Source: Leptolyngbyaceae cyanobacterium HOT.MB2.61 (GTDB lineage Bacteria > Cyanobacteriota > Cyanobacteriia > Leptolyngbyales > Leptolyngbyaceae). From it: DNA of 45,792 bases. Each line of letters starts with the position of its first letter. The stretch's first letter is position 1. Shown piece after piece: positions 3,713 to 45,702 of the stretch. The notes under the pieces are model-generated. The model was not told where the DNA came from. It was given only the letters and a program-made list of their open reading frames with translations, and ran no database searches. The position numbers and the translations under genes are program-made. Location of the stretch: assembly GCA_023511615.1 (NCBI GenBank), contig JAIMBL010000012.1, positions 1 through 45,792 on the forward strand. Direction: 5' to 3'.

Positions 3713-6700
3713 CTAAAACATTTGTTTGAGTTGTTCTGGCGTAAAGGGATTGTTGCCTTTTCTCAGGGCTTGAATCCATTGTTTGCGCTCTACTTTGGTG
3801 TTTTCCCAATCGGGAGAATTTTCTTCTGTTGCATCCAGCCAGTCAATAAAGGCTTGAAAATCGGCGATCGCCCCCTGAAAGTCTCCCAGTTGGGCTCTGA
3901 CTACCCCGCGACTGTCCCGGTTATTGGCATTTTTAGGATCTAATGCAACGGCTCTTTCGCAGGCAGCGAGAACTTCTGTGGTGTAGCCTTTCAATGCTCC
4001 AAACCAGCACAGGTTATTCCAGGAGTCCGCAGAAATGCTGACTTGCGGATCCAGGGTTTGGGCTCTGGTAAAGGTCGTCAATGCCTGTTCAATTTCGTGT
4101 TTGGCCGTTAGCCTTTCTGCTTCCTGAACGAGGGCGATCGCGGCACTTTGTTTTGCCTTCGCTACCGGGTCAAAGCCCAGGTTGGGATGAAGCTTTAGTG
4201 CCCTGCGAAACTCTGCGGTGGCTTCTTTCAGTTTGCTCTTTGCTGCCAGTTCTTCACCCCTTTCCAGGGGAAGGGTGGCTGCAATCTGCTGGGCTTTGAG
4301 TTTGGGGTCAAAGTTCAAACCTGGATTTTGCTTAAGCGCCTGCTGAAAGCGAGCAGTGGCAGTGTCAATATCCCCTGTTCTGGCTAGCTCTTCGCCCTCG
4401 GCCATCCAGTCTCGTTCAACGCCGTTACAGAGCTGGCGATCGCCTTCACGCACGCTAGGGTTATGGGTCAAGAAATGTCTTAACCAATGGCAACTATGGG
4501 TCAAAACCGTATCAAAATCAAGGCTCCATAAAATGGCTGTGGCATCTTCACTAGAAGTTGCCAGCATGTTGCTATCAGGACTGAAACTCAGGCCAACCAC
4601 CGAATTGTGATGACCTTTCAAAGTTGCCATTTCCTGGCCTTCCAGACTCCAGAGCTTCACAGAGCCATCGCCGCTACCAGAAGCGATCATTTTGCCATCG
4701 GGGCTAAAGGTAATGCTGCTCACCCCACTGGTGTGACCCTGAAATGTTTTGAGTTCTTCTCCCTTGAGATTCCACAGCTTTACCGTCTTGTCTACACTGA
4801 CAGAGGCAATCTGTTTGCCATCGGGGCTGAAACTGGCAGCCAGCACTTCGGCTGTATGTCCCTTTAAGGTAGCCAGAAGTTGACCGGAGCGGTTCCATAG
4901 CTTGATAGTGCTATCCTGGCTGGGGGTTGCGATCGTCTGCCCATCTGGACTGAAACTGATTCGACGCACTCTGGCCTGATGCCCTTTAAGGCTGGCAAGC
5001 AGCTTTCCATCCAGATTCCAAACCCGCACCGTGCCATTTTCTCTGCCTACAGCAAAGATTTGTCCATCGGGGCTAAAACTAATAAATCGGCTCTCAATGT
5101 TGCTTGCTCCTGCTGTCTTCAACGATTGCCCCAACCGATTCCACAGTTTAATTTTGCCGTCCAGGCTGGCAGAAAAGAGGGTTTGTCCATCCGGGCTGAA
5201 ACTGATTGATTCAATATTGCCACTATGCCCCCTTAGAGTTTGGAGATAGGTTCCCTCCAAACTCCAAAATTTAATCGTCTGGTCAAAACTGGCTGTGACA
5301 ACAAGTTGGTGATCCGGGCTGAAGCGCACATCTCTCACTATGCCATTGTGTTTCAGGACGGGGCGCTCCCGGTTCCAAAGCCGGATGGTGTTATCCCGGC
5401 TGCCGAGGGCGATATTCTGTCCATCGGGGCTGAGGCTGATACTTGACACAGGCGTAAAAAAAGTGCCCAGAGTTTCCAATTCTTTCCCTTCTAAGTTCCA
5501 GCGCTTTACTGTTCTGTCGTTGCTGGCAGAAATCAATTCCTGGCTATCGGGACTGAAAGCCAATCCCCAAATCGGACGGTCATGCCCTTTAATGGTTTGG
5601 AGTTCCTTGCCATCCAGGTTCCAGAGTTTGATAACGCCATCAACGTCTGCTGAAGCGATGAGTTTACCATCGGGGCTAAACACGGCTCGTTTAACGTATT
5701 CGCGATGACTACTCAAAGTTGCCCGCAGTTCACCCGAACGGCTCCACAGTTTAATGGTTTTGTCGTCCCCACAGGAAACAATCTGGGTGCCATCTGGACT
5801 AAAGCTGGCATTTAAGGCACTTCCGGGGTGAGTGGCATCCAGTCGTTTCAGTTCTTTGCCCTCCAGGTTCCAGATCCGGATGGTACTGTCTTCTCCAGTA
5901 GAAATCAGTTGCCGACCATCCGGGCTGAAATTGACACTGTAGATTTCACCCGTATGCCCTTTCAGAGTTTGGAGTTCCTTCCCCTCCTGGCTCCAGAGCT
6001 TGATGGTTTTATCAAAACTGCCTGTTGCAATCAGTTTGTTATCAGGGCTAAAGCTCACCCAATCGACGGGCTTGGTATGACCTCGAAGGGTAGCCAGTTC
6101 TTTACCTTCCAGATTCCACAGTTTTACTGTGGTGTCTCTGCTGGCCGAGGCAATGGTTTTCCCATCCGGGCTGAAGGCAAGATGCCAGACCTGATCTTGA
6201 TGCCCTTCAAACCGATTGCGTTCCCGCATCTGGTTCAGTGCCTGTTGCAGAGCGGCAATGACCCGCAATTTGGTTTCACGGCTGACCCCTTCAATCTGCT
6301 GAAGCTTGCGGGCGGCTCGCAGGCCCTGCATCAAACCTTCCAACCCCTGATTTGAGCTTAAGAAAGCTTCGGCAGAGGTGCTGAGGGTATCAATCTGGCT
6401 GAGTTCAATTTCTTTGCGACGGGCTTCGGCGGTTTGATATTGGATAAAGGCGAGGAGCCCCAACCCAGTGGCCGCAATGAGTGCTGCTGTAACGGCTCCC
6501 AGCCACACCCGCTGCTGCCGGATTTCCTGCTTCTGGCGTTGAATTTCGGCTTCCTGGCGATCGCTCTCTGCCTTGCGGCTGGCATTAATGTAATCCCGTT
6601 GAATCTGGGTTGATCGCGGTTCTTTCTCTGCGCTCTGGGTAATCCATTGAATCACTGATTCCAGTTCGCTACCACGCAACAGCAGGTCAGAGTTCCGGCT

Positions 6701-7153
6701 TTTATGCTCCCACTCGATCGCCCTGACCAAAATGCGGGTGTGCTGTTTAACGTGGTCTAAGTCCGTGGCGATCGCCTCTAACAGCGAACGAAATGCTGAA
6801 TCAAAGTCATCGTTTTCCTGAAAAAAGAGCCAGTTGTGCTTCCTGAGAGAGGGATGGACCTGCTCCGTTTTGAAATCATCCCGCCGCACAATGGGCACCA
6901 GCCGCTTGTTATTTTTAACCGCATGCTCAATTTCCCGATAGCAGACTTTTGAAGCAACAGAGTCTGCACTGAGAACAAAGACAAACGTATCGGCTGACTC
7001 AATGCCGCGTTCAATCTCCTGCCACCAATCTGCGGTGAGGGGAATATCCTGCCAATCAACCCAGGCTTCGCGGTTGTGGTTGGCTAAGGCAGTATGGAGA
7101 GTTTTAACAAAATCCTTGTCCTTTCGAGAGTAGGAAATGAAGACATCAGTCAT
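3713..7153 (-). CDS. TIR domain - transmembrane - 14x WD40 - TPR protein
   Basis: A 1146-residue multidomain protein. Residues 1-130 form a TIR domain beginning DVFISYSRKDKDF; the segment SKVCYREIEHA places Glu74 where catalytic Glu sits in NAD-cleaving TIR domains, so NADase activity is plausible but unproven. A charged coiled coil (about 175-215) precedes one hydrophobic segment (about 216-239), predicting a membrane anchor. From about residue 313 I count 14 WD40 repeats, each with FSPDG and a (V/I)KLWN end, enough for two seven-bladed propellers. The last 230 residues are helical TPR-like repeats (for example ARFQQALKQNPGL). The gene stands alone with large flanking spacers. Such TIR-WD40 proteins recur in cyanobacteria as signalling or defence candidates; the actual role is unknown. 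The start codon at the conserved TIR beginning is secure. Confidence 0.9.
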   Translation of the reverse strand: MTDVFISYSRKDKDFVKTLHTALANHNREAWVDWQDIPLTADWWQEIERGIESADTFVFVLSADSVASKVCYREIEHAVKNNKRLVPIVRRDDFKTEQVHPSLRKHNWLFFQENDDFDSAFRSLLEAIATDLDHVKQHTRILVRAIEWEHKSRNSDLLLRGSELESVIQWITQSAEKEPRSTQIQRDYINASRKAESDRQEAEIQRQKQEIRQQRVWLGAVTAALIAATGLGLLAFIQYQTAEARRKEIELSQIDTLSTSAEAFLSSNQGLEGLMQGLRAARKLQQIEGVSRETKLRVIAALQQALNQMRERNRFEGHQDQVWHLAFSPDGKTIASASRDTTVKLWNLEGKELATLRGHTKPVDWVSFSPDNKLIATGSFDKTIKLWSQEGKELQTLKGHTGEIYSVNFSPDGRQLISTGEDSTIRIWNLEGKELKRLDATHPGSALNASFSPDGTQIVSCGDDKTIKLWSRSGELRATLSSHREYVKRAVFSPDGKLIASADVDGVIKLWNLDGKELQTIKGHDRPIWGLAFSPDSQELISASNDRTVKRWNLEGKELETLGTFFTPVSSISLSPDGQNIALGSRDNTIRLWNRERPVLKHNGIVRDVRFSPDHQLVVTASFDQTIKFWSLEGTYLQTLRGHSGNIESISFSPDGQTLFSASLDGKIKLWNRLGQSLKTAGASNIESRFISFSPDGQIFAVGRENGTVRVWNLDGKLLASLKGHQARVRRISFSPDGQTIATPSQDSTIKLWNRSGQLLATLKGHTAEVLAASFSPDGKQIASVSVDKTVKLWNLKGEELKTFQGHTSGVSSITFSPDGKMIASGSGDGSVKLWSLEGQEMATLKGHHNSVVGLSFSPDSNMLATSSEDATAILWSLDFDTVLTHSCHWLRHFLTHNPSVREGDRQLCNGVERDWMAEGEELARTGDIDTATARFQQALKQNPGLNFDPKLKAQQIAATLPLERGEELAAKSKLKEATAEFRRALKLHPNLGFDPVAKAKQSAAIALVQEAERLTAKHEIEQALTTFTRAQTLDPQVSISADSWNNLCWFGALKGYTTEVLAACERAVALDPKNANNRDSRGVVRAQLGDFQGAIADFQAFIDWLDATEENSPDWENTKVERKQWIQALRKGNNPFTPEQLKQMF

Positions 7154-36983: not shown

Positions 36984-37120
36984 GGATATTTAGCGAATCA
37001 AGCTCTGAATGCCAAGTCGGTCTTTGAGCACAGAAACTTCTCCACCAGCCGCGCAGCCGCCAGGTGAACACTAAACACTATGATTGAATGAAGGATGAGC
37101 CACATTAAATCGTGAATTTT

Positions 37121-37732
37121 ATGAGTTTCCTTCGACGGCAGTTACTTCAAGGAAGTGTTTCTGCTATCCGTCTTCAGGGTTGGCGAGGTCCAGGTCGTCT
37201 TCTTTCCCTGCTCCTGGCGGTCTTGAGTTGTTGGATTGTGATGGGTACCAGTTCTGCAATGGCGGGGCTCCATGACGATCGCTTTGATGGGGATATCTTT
37301 GCCCTTTATGCCGGAAATGGGTCTCTAGTTCCTCCCAGAGTAACCCTGGCAGAAGCATTTCAGCGTAAACGTCCGATTCTACTGGTCTTTTACATTGATG
37401 ACAGCCGGGACTGCAAAGAATACTCACTGGTTATTTCTCAGCTTCAGCAATTCTATGGGAAAGCGGCTGAGTTCATGCCATTCCGGGTGGATGCTCTGCC
37501 TTCAAAGGGATCTAACGATCCCACGGAGCCGGGCTACTACTACAGGGGTTTGGTGCCCCAAACAATTTTATTCGATACATCCGGCAAGATTGTGCTAAAC
37601 GAAATTGGGCAGGTGCCGTTTGAGCAAATCGATGATGTTTTCCGAGAAGTGTTTGATTTACTGCCGCGATCGGAGTCGGTTGAGCTGAAGCGGCGATCGG
37701 TCAACGAATTGACCACTGAGCTTGTGAATTAG
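37121..37732 (+). CDS. Thioredoxin-fold thylakoid protein, photosystem I accumulation factor-like
   Basis: About 203 residues from ATG 37121. A hydrophobic segment (LLSLLLAVLSCWIVMG, about 25-45) ending in a possible SAMA cleavage site suggests export or anchoring in the thylakoid. The remainder is a thioredoxin-like domain: VTLAEAFQRKRPILLVFYID, then DSRDCKEYSLVISQLQQFYG, with a cis-proline-like LVPQTILFD. It matches the cyanobacterial family annotated as thylakoid photosystem I accumulation factor (Slr1796-like). Only one Cys is present where thioredoxins have CxxC, so disulfide exchange is unlikely or monothiol. A GTG three codons earlier is an alternative start. Confidence 0.7.
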   Translation: MSFLRRQLLQGSVSAIRLQGWRGPGRLLSLLLAVLSCWIVMGTSSAMAGLHDDRFDGDIFALYAGNGSLVPPRVTLAEAFQRKRPILLVFYIDDSRDCKEYSLVISQLQQFYGKAAEFMPFRVDALPSKGSNDPTEPGYYYRGLVPQTILFDTSGKIVLNEIGQVPFEQIDDVFREVFDLLPRSESVELKRRSVNELTTELVN

Positions 37733-39400: not shown

Positions 39401-39796
39401 ATGACGTATTCACTAAGTCAGTTCAAAGAGGTTCTGGACGGTTTGGGATTTCATCTGGGACCAGATGGACTCAATGGCAACAATGGAAATATTTTAGATG
39501 TTCATACTCAATCAGCAATTCGCGAATTTCAATATCAGTACAAACTGCCAGTTACGGGCAGGTTAGATTCTGCCACTGATGACAAAGCTCAGAAAATTAT
39601 GCGGAATCTGCAATACAGCCTGAACCTTACGGTCAATGCCCAACTGCCCGTGAATGAGTTTTACGGCCCCCAAACTCTACAAGCAGTGAAGAGTTTTCAA
39701 AAAGTTTACGGCCTGCCAGTGACCGGAATTGCAACATTGATGGTTCGGCAAAGAATCGACCAGGAGGTTAGAAACCGAACAACAGCCAGTGCTTAG
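39401..39796 (+). CDS. Protein with two peptidoglycan-binding (PG_binding_1-like) repeats
   Basis: 131 residues with AAGGAG 9 nt before ATG. Two copies of the three-helix repeat are seen: the first with LDVHTQSAIREFQYQYKLPVTGRLDSAT, the second with FYGPQTLQAVKSFQKVYGLPVTGIATLM. No signal peptide is visible, so localisation is unclear; it may be non-classically exported or act as a cytoplasmic protein. No catalytic domain is attached. No operon partners. Confidence 0.85.
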   Translation: MTYSLSQFKEVLDGLGFHLGPDGLNGNNGNILDVHTQSAIREFQYQYKLPVTGRLDSATDDKAQKIMRNLQYSLNLTVNAQLPVNEFYGPQTLQAVKSFQKVYGLPVTGIATLMVRQRIDQEVRNRTTASA

Positions 39797-40090: not shown

Positions 40091-40124
40091 CCTGTGGAGT
40101 ACGCGTCTTCTCCACAGGTTTTTT
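40091..40124 (+). terminator. Rho-independent terminator without an assigned gene
   Basis: Perfect 9-bp stem CCTGTGGAG/CTCCACAGG, 10-nt loop, then six T. The nearest plus-strand gene ends 295 bp upstream and repeats intervene, so it may instead end a small RNA transcribed across about 39985-40124. No such RNA was recognised. Confidence 0.75.
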
Positions 40125-40235: not shown

Positions 40236-42557
40236 ATGGGGTTAACGCGGCGGGATTTTCTAGAACGAACGGGTTTGGCGCTGGCAGTCTGGGGTGCTGG
40301 CGATATGGGATTGTCCATATTGGTCAACCGCTACCGAAAGGTACTTGCAGAGCCCACCCGTCGCAAGCTGGCACTCCTGGTTGGGATCAATCAATATCAA
40401 GGAGTAGCCCTCAGCGGTTGCGTGACGGATGTTGAACTGCAACGGGAATTACTGATTTACCGTTTTGGATTCCAACCCCAGGACATTCTGACGCTGACCG
40501 ATCAGCAGGCAACGCGAGCGGCGATCGCAACGGCCTTTATCTCCCACCTGACGGAGCAGGCACAATCCGGTGATGTGGTCATTTTCCACTTCAGTGGCTA
40601 CGGGGGCACTGTGGCAACGGGAGCGAGTTTAGAAGAGATGCAGCCCAGCCTGGTACCTGTGGATGGATTGGTTGGGGACGGGGAGAGTGCTGTTTCCAGT
40701 GATTTGCTGGAAGAAACCCTGGGGTTATTGGTGCGATCGCTCCAGACCGACAAAGTTACCACTATCCTTGACACCAGCTACACCTATCCTGGCAAGTCTC
40801 TACTCGGCAATCTGCGTATTCGTACCCGTCCCACCACTTCCCCCATCCAACCCGATAAGGCAGAGCTTGTCTTCCAGGAACAACTCCTCAACAAAATTTC
40901 TCCCCGTCTTCACCTGTCCCGATCCAGTCAGTCTTCCCTTCCCGGCATCCACCTCGCTGCTACGACGCCTAGCCGGATGGCTACCGAAGTCCGCTGGAAT
41001 GGGTTCAGTGCTGGACTTTTCACCTGCGCCCTGACCCGCCACCTCTGGCAGGCTGCCCCAGCAACCTCCTTACAGGTGATCTTCAGCCGCACGAAAACCC
41101 AGGTAGAACAACTGGCAGGTCAGGAACAGCAACCCCAATTGAGCGGCCAAAAGAGCCAGGAAGTCTCCTTACAACCGTACAATCTACCCGTCACCACTCC
41201 AGGAGTCGATGGGGTTGTGACTGAAGTGGAAGATGGTGGTAAAGCGGCCCAGATCTGGCTGGCTGGATTACCTGCTCCCTTGCTGGAGCACTATGGTGTT
41301 AATTCTCTTTTCACACTGGTGGAATTCTCCTCTACTGGGGAAAACCAATCGCCCGTGTATCTGCAATTGACTGCTAAAGAAGGGCTAACTGTCAGAGCAA
41401 AACTGTACCGGGTTGACTCCGCTCCAGAGGCTTTGGAAGCTGCGCCTGTGATAAAAGTTGGGCAGTTTGTCCAGGAGCGAGTGCGGGTGCTGCCCCGTAA
41501 CATCGGGCTGACGGTGGCACTGGACAGCAACCTGGAGCGAATTGAACGGGTGGATGCGATCAGTGCGTTTACGGCGATTCCACGGGTGTCTTCGGCGATC
41601 GCAGGTGAACAATCCGCCGACTACCTGTTCAGCAAAATCCAGACCACCCCATCAACCCAGGTTGCTGCGGCAACCAATCTCTCTGGCATCATGGCCACCC
41701 CCACCCCTGCTCAGAGCGCCTACGGGCTGTTTTCTCTGGGACAGGATGCTATCCCCAACACTGCCGGAGAGGGAGGAGAAGCAGTCAAGTTTGCGGTTCG
41801 CCGTCTGATTCCTAAGCTACAAACTTTGCTGGCTACCAAACTGCTAAATCTGACAGTCAATGAAACCTCGTCCCAGTTGGCTGTACGCATGACCCTGGAA
41901 CGGCTCAATCCCCAACCCCAAGCTCTTCTGCGTAAGGAAACGTGGGTGTTGTCCCAGGCTGCAAAACCAGGCAGCACACCAACCCCAGCAGAAACGGGTG
42001 GGTTGCTTAGCCTTCCAATCGGTAGTCGGATTCAGTATCGAATGGAAAACCGCAGTGACCATCCCTTGTATCCCGTTTTGTTAGGGTTAGACAGTAGCAG
42101 CAACTTAATTGCCCTCTATGCTCCCCCTACTCAAACAGCCGATCACCCGACGGCCCAACCAGCATTAGCAATGGATCAACCCGATGGGCAGACCGTAGCC
42201 TTGATGCCGCCAGTTTTTAGAAGCATTGCTCCGGGTGAGGTGTTGACCTTGCCTCCCACCTTCCCTTCCTTCCAGTGGGCCCTGAATGGTCCCCCCGGAC
42301 TGATGGAAACCTATCTCATTTGCAGCCGCGCACCCCTGACTCAGACCCAAACCATTCTTGAAACCGCCCTTCACTCGGCAGGAAACAATCCCGCGTTTTA
42401 CCCCTTACCCAACCCGATGGAAGTTGCCCAGGCAGTTTTGCAAGATCTTCACCAGGCAAGCGATACGGCGGCAAAAGTGGTTGGGACAACACCCGACTTC
42501 TTTGCGCTGGATGTGACAGCCTGGGCCAGTCTTCGTTTCGTTTATCAGGTAGTTTGA
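40236..42557 (+). CDS. Tat-signal caspase-fold protein with substituted catalytic dyad (pseudo-orthocaspase)
   Basis: 773 residues. The N-terminus has a twin-arginine motif (TRRDFLERTG) followed by a hydrophobic stretch. Residues about 43-190 form a caspase-like p20 domain (KLALLVGINQYQG, DILTLTDQQATRAAI, VVIFHFSGYGG). The dyad is altered: the His of the usual FHFSGHG is Tyr122, and the Cys of DxCHSG is Ser181 in LDTSYT. Hydrolysis by the normal mechanism is therefore excluded. The C-terminal 580 residues are a large unknown region with a beta-rich look and no known motif. Tyr-Ser orthocaspase homologues are known from cyanobacteria, with suggested links to photosynthesis. The next gene overlaps its stop by one base. 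ATG 40236 starts the Tat motif. Confidence 0.85.
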   Translation: MGLTRRDFLERTGLALAVWGAGDMGLSILVNRYRKVLAEPTRRKLALLVGINQYQGVALSGCVTDVELQRELLIYRFGFQPQDILTLTDQQATRAAIATAFISHLTEQAQSGDVVIFHFSGYGGTVATGASLEEMQPSLVPVDGLVGDGESAVSSDLLEETLGLLVRSLQTDKVTTILDTSYTYPGKSLLGNLRIRTRPTTSPIQPDKAELVFQEQLLNKISPRLHLSRSSQSSLPGIHLAATTPSRMATEVRWNGFSAGLFTCALTRHLWQAAPATSLQVIFSRTKTQVEQLAGQEQQPQLSGQKSQEVSLQPYNLPVTTPGVDGVVTEVEDGGKAAQIWLAGLPAPLLEHYGVNSLFTLVEFSSTGENQSPVYLQLTAKEGLTVRAKLYRVDSAPEALEAAPVIKVGQFVQERVRVLPRNIGLTVALDSNLERIERVDAISAFTAIPRVSSAIAGEQSADYLFSKIQTTPSTQVAAATNLSGIMATPTPAQSAYGLFSLGQDAIPNTAGEGGEAVKFAVRRLIPKLQTLLATKLLNLTVNETSSQLAVRMTLERLNPQPQALLRKETWVLSQAAKPGSTPTPAETGGLLSLPIGSRIQYRMENRSDHPLYPVLLGLDSSSNLIALYAPPTQTADHPTAQPALAMDQPDGQTVALMPPVFRSIAPGEVLTLPPTFPSFQWALNGPPGLMETYLICSRAPLTQTQTILETALHSAGNNPAFYPLPNPMEVAQAVLQDLHQASDTAAKVVGTTPDFFALDVTAWASLRFVYQVV

Positions 42558-43768
42558 TGAAACTGATCCGCTGGCTGACAACGGCTCTTTTGCTGTCGTG
42601 CTTAATGTTGTATCTGGTAATGGGTGCGGCGATCGCCCAAACGGAACAAGCTCCAACCTCTGGCAGTTCAAAGCAAGCAATTACCCCATCTCCCACCCAT
42701 CTGAAAGACCCCTCTCCCTACACCAACTCCTTCTGGGAAAAACTAGAGCGATTGCGGGAAGACCGCCAGCTTCAAGAACTGGTTGAAGAGGACCTGGAAA
42801 AAAGTTTTACCATCCGGGCCCAAATTCAAGAAGAGGTCGATCGCGCCTTCAGCCACACCACCAGCTTGCTCAACGTGTTGCTGGGTGTATTAACTTTTCT
42901 GCCCGTTCTGGCGGCTGTCAGCGTCTGGTTCATCCGCCGCAGCGTGATCACCCAGATTTTAGGGGAAACGAAGAAACAACTCCAGGAAGAAGTCGAAAAG
43001 CAGTTTGACCAGGAAATAGCCGCCGAGATGAAACAGCAGGCAGAGGCGTTTAAGCAGGAAATTGAAAAGCTGAGGGATGAGTTCAAGGATCAACTTTCCC
43101 AGCTAAAAATTCTGGTTCTAGATGCCCAGAACGAAAAAGACCAGATCATTCAGGAGCTTTCCCAGATTACCCCTTCACCCATTCGAGAAACAGCCCCACC
43201 GGAAACCCAGCAGAAAATCCATGCCCTCACTCAACAACTGGAACTGCTGAAATCAACTAATGCCCAGCTTTCATTTACGGCTAACGACTATGTAGAGCAG
43301 GGAAAAGCCCTTTATTTTGAAGGCCGCTACGAAGAGGCAATCACCTTCTACGATAGGGCAATTCAGATGGAACCCGAAAATCCCAGAGCCTGGTTTGGTC
43401 GGGGAGCCGCTTTAGCCAGGATGCAGCAGATGGAGGAAGCGATCGCCGCCTATGATCGGGCAATCCAGATTAAGCCAGATTCTTCCGAAGTGTGGTTTGG
43501 TAAAGGTGCGGCTCTGGCAAAAATGCAGCGATTAGAAGAAGCAATTTCTGCCTATGACAAAGCGACCCAACTCAAACCCGATTTCTTCCTTGCCTGGTTT
43601 GGTAAAGCACGCTGCCATTCTCTCCAGGGCAATGTAGAATCAGCACTGGAAAGTTTTCAACAGGCAGTCAGCCTAAACCCAGAAAAAAGTCGGGAAGTCG
43701 CCAAAACCGACTCCTCCTTCGACTTACTTCGAAACAATGACCAGTTCAAACAGATTCTTGAAGAATAG
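42557..43768 (+). CDS. Membrane protein with coiled coil and C-terminal TPR repeats
   Basis: 403 residues from ATG 42557, which overlaps the TGA of the pseudo-orthocaspase gene (TGATG), so translation is coupled. Signal peptide-like N-terminus (LIRWLTTALLLSCLMLYLVMGAA) and a second hydrophobic helix (about 104-126, ending WFIRR) come first. A long heptad-patterned coiled coil follows (about 130-240). The C-terminal 140 residues are about four TPRs with AWFGRGAALARM, VWFGKGAALAKM and AWFGKARCHSLQ. Positive residues after the second helix put the coiled coil and TPRs in the cytoplasm if the first segment is cleaved. It probably scaffolds a partner, likely the preceding gene product, though Tat export of that product would place them on opposite sides. 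Confidence 0.85.
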   Translation: MKLIRWLTTALLLSCLMLYLVMGAAIAQTEQAPTSGSSKQAITPSPTHLKDPSPYTNSFWEKLERLREDRQLQELVEEDLEKSFTIRAQIQEEVDRAFSHTTSLLNVLLGVLTFLPVLAAVSVWFIRRSVITQILGETKKQLQEEVEKQFDQEIAAEMKQQAEAFKQEIEKLRDEFKDQLSQLKILVLDAQNEKDQIIQELSQITPSPIRETAPPETQQKIHALTQQLELLKSTNAQLSFTANDYVEQGKALYFEGRYEEAITFYDRAIQMEPENPRAWFGRGAALARMQQMEEAIAAYDRAIQIKPDSSEVWFGKGAALAKMQRLEEAISAYDKATQLKPDFFLAWFGKARCHSLQGNVESALESFQQAVSLNPEKSREVAKTDSSFDLLRNNDQFKQILEE

Positions 43769-44061: not shown

Positions 44062-45702
44062 ATGAAACCACTGTGTACTTTGGTAGCCGCTCTTTGCATG
44101 TTTGACGTTTTACTCTCTGCCCTTCCCCCCCAGGCATCCCAACTGGCTGAATCTACCCCGGTTGCACCCCCGACGGTTGAAAAAGTTGTTCCAAAGCAAG
44201 TCCAGAGTCCTTCACCAAAGCCCACAGTCAGTGCTCCAGAGGCTATACCATCAGAGCTTCCAGTACGGCGACAGACGGCAGGATTGAGCTTAATTGGAGC
44301 CAGACCCGCCGCGGCTGCTACTTTATCTGTTCAACAGGTCAGGGCAGAATTCTCCCCGATTTCCCAAACAAACGTCAGCAAGCCTGCAGAAGAACCTGAA
44401 AAGACTTCTCAACCGATTGAAACTGAGGCAAAGCAAATTTCAGATCCGGTGGTTGGCCAGATTAACCAGAAAGCTAATCGGGCGATCTCCCCCACGACTC
44501 AAAAACTGAGCCCTCCCCAAAACAACTCTGATCAGCGAGCTACGGTCGCTAAGCAAGCCTCAAAAATGCCAGCCACTACCCGGCGCGTTAAGCCCAAAAC
44601 ATCCCAGAAACTGGCAGACCTGTCCCTTGCAAAACCTGCCAGCGTCCAGGAAGCTGATAGTACAACTACTCCGTTCATCCAACCACCCAACCCATTGCCT
44701 TCTTCAACTCCACCACAAAATCAGACGACACCACAAGAAGACGCCAGACGCAAGGCATTTGAAGCGGCTAAAGCAGAGCGATTGAAGTTACTAGAGCAAA
44801 AGCTGGCAGAAATTGTTGCCAGGGAAAAGCCGTTGAAAGAGGAACGAATGCGGGAAAACTTGCGGGCGATCGCCATCAGGCAGGCCGAGGCCGGGCAACT
44901 GGAACAGGCTCGCAAAACCGCTCAGGATCTGGTGTTGAGCCAGGAAGAGCAAATTAAACTCCGCACCCAGATTGATGCCCTGGCAAAACGCCAACCAGTC
45001 GCTAAGAAACCTACTCCCCAGCAGTCACTCCGGGCAGCCGCAACCCAACTCAACCAATCCCGGCCTGTGGTGCAAGGGGCTCTCAGCTATCCAACCTATG
45101 TCCTTCCGGGTCCGGTATTGGGCAGCAACCTTCGCCTCAGCCAGTTGGGTCTGCGTCTGGGTAATGGGAACCTCAGACTGGCGTTCCCGCTGCCTTTCCC
45201 TGCCCAGTTGACCTCTGGCTTTGGTTGGCGGACTCACCCAATTTCGGGCGAACGCCGCTTCCACCGGGGGGTTGACTTGGCTGCCGCCTATGGTACTCCA
45301 GTTATTGCCGCTTTTTCAGGAAAGGTAGAGGTTGCCGATTGGATGGATGGCTACGGCATGACCATCATTCTGACCCACGAGAACTCTACCCAAACCCTCT
45401 ATGCCCATCTGTCAGAAATCTTTGTTAAGCCTGGAGATGCGATCGAACAGGGAGCTTTGATCGGACGCATCGGAAGCACCGGGCTTTCAACCGGACCTCA
45501 CCTCCACTTTGAACTTCATCAATTAGTAGACGATAGCTGGATCGTAATTGACCCACTCATTCAACTAGAAGTTGCCCAGGCACGCCTACTCCAAGCGATG
45601 CAAACGGCTCAGGTGCCTTTTCAGGCCACACCTCCGCCCCAACCCTTTGCCGCCATTCCACCCCCACCCACACAGAGGTTCGACTACCTGCATAACTTCT
45701 GA
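44062..45702 (+). CDS. M23 family metallopeptidase (peptidoglycan endopeptidase)
   Basis: 546 residues. A hydrophobic N-terminus (PLCTLVAALCMFDVLLSALPP) suggests export. A long Pro/Gln/Thr-rich linker (about 25-230) with a helical, Lys/Glu-rich coiled coil (about 232-320) precedes the LytM domain (about 370-495). The zinc ligands are intact: H401xxxD405 in RFHRGVDLAA and the HxH pair H480/H482 in GPHLHFEL. The family cleaves peptide cross-links in peptidoglycan and functions in division or wall remodelling. A Pro-rich tail closes the protein. It lies 293 bp after the TPR gene; whether it belongs to that operon is unclear. Confidence 0.92.
   Translation: MKPLCTLVAALCMFDVLLSALPPQASQLAESTPVAPPTVEKVVPKQVQSPSPKPTVSAPEAIPSELPVRRQTAGLSLIGARPAAAATLSVQQVRAEFSPISQTNVSKPAEEPEKTSQPIETEAKQISDPVVGQINQKANRAISPTTQKLSPPQNNSDQRATVAKQASKMPATTRRVKPKTSQKLADLSLAKPASVQEADSTTTPFIQPPNPLPSSTPPQNQTTPQEDARRKAFEAAKAERLKLLEQKLAEIVAREKPLKEERMRENLRAIAIRQAEAGQLEQARKTAQDLVLSQEEQIKLRTQIDALAKRQPVAKKPTPQQSLRAAATQLNQSRPVVQGALSYPTYVLPGPVLGSNLRLSQLGLRLGNGNLRLAFPLPFPAQLTSGFGWRTHPISGERRFHRGVDLAAAYGTPVIAAFSGKVEVADWMDGYGMTIILTHENSTQTLYAHLSEIFVKPGDAIEQGALIGRIGSTGLSTGPHLHFELHQLVDDSWIVIDPLIQLEVAQARLLQAMQTAQVPFQATPPPQPFAAIPPPPTQRFDYLHNF

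Follow-up and report, generated by a model that had tools for sequence, protein, structure and literature searches.

A pseudo-orthocaspase with a twin-arginine signal and its recurrent gene pairing with a predicted membrane tetratricopeptide repeat protein in some cyanobacteria

Cyanobacterial pseudo-orthocaspases with a Tyr-Ser (YS) pair in place of the catalytic His-Cys (HC) dyad have already been described (Klemencic et al., 2019, PMC6426788), as an earlier note on the DNA analysed here correctly stated. In these YS forms two Asp residues line a pocket for basic residues, and an N-terminal extension is the main difference from active forms (PMC6426788). The single-copy pseudo-orthocaspase SyOC (sll0148) of Synechocystis sp. 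PCC 6803 has a Tyr-Gly (YG) dyad, and its deletion raises H2O2 tolerance (PMC7889975). Dead caspases or metacaspases standing beside an active relative are exemplified by cFLIP-L/caspase-8 and TbMC4/TbMC3 (discussed in PMC6426788), which differ from the present case in being eukaryotic and cytoplasmic, without export by the twin-arginine translocation (Tat) pathway and without a membrane partner carrying tetratricopeptide repeats (TPRs). Here we describe a gene pair found on contig JAIMBL010000012.1 of Leptolyngbyaceae cyanobacterium HOT.MB2.61, in a stretch of 45,792 nucleotides hereafter called the window. It consists of a pseudo-orthocaspase gene (40236..42557, + strand, 773 aa, stop TGA included) followed by an open reading frame for a TPR membrane protein (42557..43768, + strand, 403 aa, stop included). 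In the alphaproteobacterial Phe-Ser (FS) pseudo-orthocaspases a dead p20 domain and C-terminal TPRs are parts of the same chain (PMC6426788), whereas here the TPRs reside in a separate membrane protein.

The window caspase shares with the published YS forms the p20 domain, the Tyr-Ser dyad, the conserved acidic pocket and a long C-terminus. Its p20 domain (residues 43-304, 40362..41147) matches Peptidase_C14 (PF00656) with an E-value of 1.1e-20, and the predicted fold resembles that of metacaspases (Z 18-19.5, at best 19.5 over 213 residues at 3.3 Å), the structural match covering residues 38-277 only. The codon of Tyr122 (TAC, 40599..40601) stands at the position of the catalytic His and that of Ser181 (AGC, 40776..40778) at the position of the catalytic Cys, in agreement with the earlier note. 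In the alignment with an intact paralogue from the same genome, L238, the window protein reads SGYG and LDTSYTY where the paralogue reads SGHG and LDSCHSGG; solved plant metacaspases (metacaspase-9) likewise have the histidine of their SGHG at the position of Tyr122. The window protein lacks the His-Cys pair of active orthocaspases (family C14).

Loss of the dyad extends to all the orthologues scored. Among 123 orthologues with genomic context none carries His-Cys; the observed combinations are YS (40), YG (26), LS (18), LG (14), FS (8) and HG (5), together with the rarer FG (4), YC (3), CS (2), LA (2) and CG (1). Tyr-Ser is therefore not fixed, and, differently from the published YS forms, only a third of the orthologues here have it. 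YG, the second commonest dyad, is also that of SyOC, a comparison made by dyad and not assuming orthology to the window gene. The pocket residues Asp65 and Asp179 are kept in 123/123 orthologues, as are Ser120 and Gly121; that these two Asp are the counterparts of the published pocket residues is our own assignment by alignment. This combination of a lost dyad and a retained pocket fits a binding pseudoprotease and not a new Tyr-Ser enzyme, and conservation makes a binding rather than a cutting role, as had been suggested, well supported. Homologues of the pseudo-orthocaspase are present in 78 of the 97 genomes of relatives (E <= 1e-20, paralogues included).

The protein begins with a predicted Tat signal (residues 1-38, 40236..40349), likewise recognized in the earlier note, whose Arg5-Arg6 pair is retained in all 121 scorable orthologues, the remaining two of the 123 being gapped there. 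Residue 36 is Ala or Val in 115/123 and residue 38 is Ala in 117/123, so that by its sequence this is an ordinary Tat signal bearing a signal-peptidase motif, and cleavage probably occurs after VLA38. The published YS forms similarly have an N-terminal extension of ~30 residues with RR and AxA. The region following p20 was earlier described as 580 residues of unknown character, a description that needs revision in length and in content: it spans some 460-470 residues (residues 311-773, 41166..42554), folds confidently in prediction and matches DUF4384 in 20 of 26 orthologues (best E 6e-10). In the window protein the DUF4384-like segment (residues 648-700, 42177..42335) scores 24.9 bits, under the Pfam cut-off of 27, and this weak match may be another difference from the published YS forms. 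As a full-length model made with 26 sequences was weak outside p20 (predicted local distance difference test, pLDDT, 68), the C-terminal part was refolded alone by AlphaFold2 with 80 orthologues, giving a mean pLDDT of 87.6 and a predicted template modelling score of 0.88, and appears as a beta-rich region with several helices and several sub-domains. Foldseek returned no match of this region to solved structures at E <= 0.001. A match to the N-terminal beta-barrel of F1-ATPase (Z 8.6, 73 residues) lies near the level of common arrangements, and we claim no homology from it.

The downstream gene encodes a protein with TPR models matching four stretches, the number previously noted (TPR_1, E 1.1e-35; NCBIfam TPR_END NF047558, E 6.9e-26), the Pfam repeats lying at ~241-379 and the array with its end cap at residues 241-403 (43277..43765). 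Two hydrophobic segments precede the array, at residues 3-30 and 100-127, and were previously counted as two membrane helices. The first ends in A-x-A and is better read as a Sec signal peptide, predicted to be cleaved after residue 27 (AIA|Q; residues 1-27, 42557..42637), which leaves a single span at ~105-127 (42869..42937). This span, conserved among 20 homologues, lies between an acidic stretch and an RR pair, the latter on the side predicted to be cytoplasmic. Between signal peptide and span lies a short segment, predicted to be exported (residues 28-104, 42638..42868), whose conserved part in the same 20 homologues is the juxtamembrane IQxEVDRAFSHTT, and which is far shorter in the Nostoc homologues. 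After the span comes a charged, heptad-like stretch (~residues 128-235, 42938..43261), assigned as a putative coiled coil by sequence inspection and conservation. From hydropathy and charge, segment 28-104 looks to be on the caspase's side of the membrane, with the coil and the TPRs in the cytoplasm. The conflict raised in the earlier note, namely that the two products lie on opposite membrane faces, therefore mostly dissolves: the coil and TPRs do appear to face the cytoplasm, but the signal peptide had been counted as a membrane helix, and, once the first helix is read as a cleaved signal peptide, the question reduces to contact between segment 28-104 and the exported caspase.

The two genes overlap by their stop and start codons, the TPR gene starting inside the caspase stop (TGATG, 42555..42559), as was stated before. 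Among the window's relatives, the TPR orthologue adjoins the caspase gene in the window's own genome (G000), G001 and G006, with start overlapping stop in each (TAATG in G001, GGATGA in G006), and in G037 a paralogous TPR gene lies ~160 nt from the caspase gene. A class-wide profile search of the 123 caspase loci found an adjacent TPR gene in G000, G001 and G006 only, and gave a weak hit in G089, in which the gene 70 nt downstream specifies 554 residues arranged alike, with signal peptide, membrane span, coil and TPR; in G196 a soluble TPR protein is encoded downstream of the caspase. The observed pairing is far above a rough chance expectation of ~0.006 for the 123 loci, which assumes 5,000 genes and one TPR copy in 45% of genomes. 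The pairing is not restricted to the genus of the window, as the sequence flanking TPR relatives on GTDB contigs shows: at 10 of 48 loci with a relative of the N-terminal half of the TPR protein, a caspase orthologue is immediately upstream (Nostoc 106C, T09, KVJ20 and LEGE 12450, Calothrix brevissima, Anabaena catenula, Argonema antarcticum, Phormidium LEGE 05292, Trichocoleus FACHB-40 and the metagenome-assembled genome PMM_0008). In a sample of 118 Nostocaceae genomes, a strong TPR match was found in seven, directly downstream of the caspase in five of these and one gene away in the sixth; two of the seven appear already among the ten GTDB loci (G343, Nostoc T09; G392, Calothrix brevissima). 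At least 17 distinct linked species are therefore known, made up of G000, G001, G006, G037, the ten GTDB loci, G396, G325 and G384. We also observed that in G360 the caspase and TPR genes are separated by an opposite-strand gene (L266, 1984-3108), whose product is predicted to span the membrane several times and looks acyltransferase-like on inspection.

In the TPR gene tree the linked Nostocales and Oscillatoriales-type genes form one clade, consistent with an old pair, and the genes of the window lineage and of G037 are placed elsewhere, among unlinked genes. Three or more distinct branches of the tree contain paired genes, and in every case gene order and strand are identical. The pair is either ancestral and often broken or was formed several times, and either history argues for a functional link. 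Every linked caspase whose dyad could be scored has Tyr-Ser; we do not claim an association between this dyad and pairing, as it is confounded with lineage, 14 of the 15 Nostocaceae in the sample being YS.

Two further features of the caspase family bear on its function. The window's genome holds a second full-length caspase with a Tat signal, L238 (G000:C373:175-2376, - strand, 734 aa), which has an intact His-Cys dyad and the same C-terminal region. It is an active-type relative with matching architecture that shares the cell with the pseudo form, as in the cFLIP-L case. Its group comprises 21 homologues from 21 genomes, all with RR and the same full-length architecture, HC being intact in 17 and replaced by YG or HG in the other four; in a midpoint-rooted tree it splits from the pseudo group with a support of 0.97. 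These active-type paralogues share the Tat signal and the C-terminus, and so form an exception to the published distinction by the N-terminal extension. The same kind of second caspase copy was seen in most genomes checked. The other feature is the ATP sulfurylase gene (sat), recognized by inspecting the sequence and by its homology to the c2 cluster. Of 116 cyanobacterial caspase loci that could be assessed, 76 have it directly upstream in the same orientation (L064, L041, L070 and others; seven of the 123 loci, with <1.2 kb of upstream sequence, were set aside). All ten GTDB pairs are ordered sat-caspase-TPR; the window is without sat.

We tentatively favor, at a little under an even chance, a model in which a dead orthocaspase is exported via Tat, binds basic partners and, in some cyanobacteria, is paired with a single-pass TPR adaptor. 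The caspase would be exported folded to the periplasm or thylakoid lumen, where its retained acidic pocket would probably bind but not cleave proteins or peptides containing basic residues, this type of ligand being suggested by the pocket. In a subset of cyanobacteria it would be made together with the TPR protein, whose signal peptide would be cleaved, leaving a short N-terminal segment in the caspase compartment, one span, and a cytoplasmic part made of the coil and TPRs. Together the two would anchor the exported pseudo-orthocaspase or report its state to cytoplasmic partners; a two-protein machine of this kind is plausible as a hypothesis. Several observations weigh against this model. 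Most of the class-wide orthologues have no TPR gene downstream; in Stenomitos, Scytolyngbya, Pantanalinema and others the TPR orthologue (57-72% identity) is found on a contig other than that of the caspase, and in further genomes of the class the two genes are on different contigs or far apart, which together imply that the caspase works without the TPR protein in most species. Few of the 123 loci have a TPR family gene immediately after the caspase, so this is not an obligate two-gene system, although the absences are soft, the profile searches scoring a limited number of candidates per genome. The exported segment 28-104 is moreover brief and, apart from its juxtamembrane part, little conserved, and so would offer little surface for specific contact. 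The dedicated TPR membrane partner envisaged in the earlier note is accordingly a real and recurrent gene neighbor, for which 'dedicated' claims too much, most orthologues being unpaired and many TPR genes lying elsewhere; as to its conservation, most near relatives have lost or lack the pairing, which persists in a single sister species, a single further genus and distant orders. Away from the caspase, one Scytolyngbya locus (L044, 3964-6447) has a tandem of two TPR family genes, which belong to two different paralogous groups.

A less probable account, though one of appreciable weight, is that the two genes are co-transcribed and their products share only regulation or a pathway, without physical contact. 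It draws on the TPR relatives that function unlinked in many genomes, and on sat, which encodes a cytoplasmic enzyme and is the more frequent neighbor, so that neighborhood alone does not mean contact; the constant order and strand in at least three TPR-tree branches argue against it, as do G089 and G196, where two TPR proteins of unrelated appearance are encoded at the position of the TPR gene. By analogy with cFLIP-L and caspase-8, the pseudo-orthocaspase may instead mainly regulate the exported His-Cys paralogue, with the TPR protein as an accessory, which the presence of L238 and of intact HC in most of its RR-bearing group would favor; we consider this improbable, and small unicellular cyanobacteria have pseudo forms only (PMC6426788, PMC8283722), so the role cannot be general. 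An equally improbable, more elaborate proposal would unite these elements into a transmembrane signalling unit, in which basic peptides in the periplasm or thylakoid lumen would be sensed or trapped by the dead caspase, which would also restrain the live His-Cys paralogue, likewise exported, and report through the single-pass adaptor, whose TPRs would recruit cytoplasmic partners. Tat signals can serve as anchors, and the TPRs and p20 would lie on one face if the Tat segment were kept as such or if the TPR protein retained both helices as a hairpin. This arrangement seems quite unlikely given the conserved A/V-x-A site of the caspase, the A-x-A at the end of the first TPR-protein helix, and a Tat h-region without any 19-residue window above 1.5 on the Kyte-Doolittle scale. 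Least likely of all, Tyr122 and Ser181 could form a new hydrolase site, in line with the uniformly Tyr-Ser dyads of the scorable linked caspases; that pattern has the lineage confound described above, and we reject Tyr-Ser catalysis on the drift of both sites among the 123 orthologues, to L, F, H and C at the first and to G, C and A at the second.

The surroundings of the pair in the window comprise a gene for a protein with a peptidoglycan-binding domain (39401-39796) on one side and an M23 peptidase gene (44062-45702) on the other. Approximately 110 nt upstream of the caspase start we read from the sequence a terminator-like element (40091..40124, + strand), formed by a perfect 9-bp hairpin (CCTGTGGAG / CTCCACAGG) with a 10-nt loop and then six T; the hairpin scan, with its loop limit of 8, did not list it. 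From this hairpin and its T-run, the caspase/TPR pair may form its own transcription unit. The gene of a thylakoid photosystem I accumulation factor (slr1796 family, NF038096, 240 bits) is located ~2.5 kb upstream of the caspase (37112-37732, + strand). Much further away (3713-7153, - strand), the window encodes a 1146-residue protein with, by inspection only, a TIR-like N-terminus (MTDVFISYSRKDKDFVK), WD40-like repeats and a TPR-like C-terminus, an architecture like that of bacterial conflict systems. PADLOC and PHROG gave no specific match, the generic 'caspase' model of PADLOC being the sole one; no search was made for defence neighbors.

The kind of protein described here is known, and its gene pair is apparently unreported. 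The description of the YS pseudo-orthocaspases makes no mention of a neighboring gene (neighbor, operon and TPR were looked for; PMC6426788), although Nostoc sp. T09, one of its model strains, carries the pair (L100); no TPR partner is described for SyOC in PMC7889975, unlike in the window; and in the open-access literature we found no report of the gene pair, the sat linkage or Tat-exported HC paralogues. Few caspase relatives are as widespread in cyanobacteria as the pseudo-orthocaspases, whose mechanism is not known, and a knock-out of one has been tied to oxidative-stress tolerance (PMC7889975). The recurrent pair offers a concrete candidate partner together with test strains (Nostoc sp. 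T09 and Calothrix brevissima NIES-22), and the sat neighborhood is a second, unexplored functional clue. The presence of an intact exported paralogue in the same genome, in turn, makes a pair of dead and live caspases testable in bacteria.

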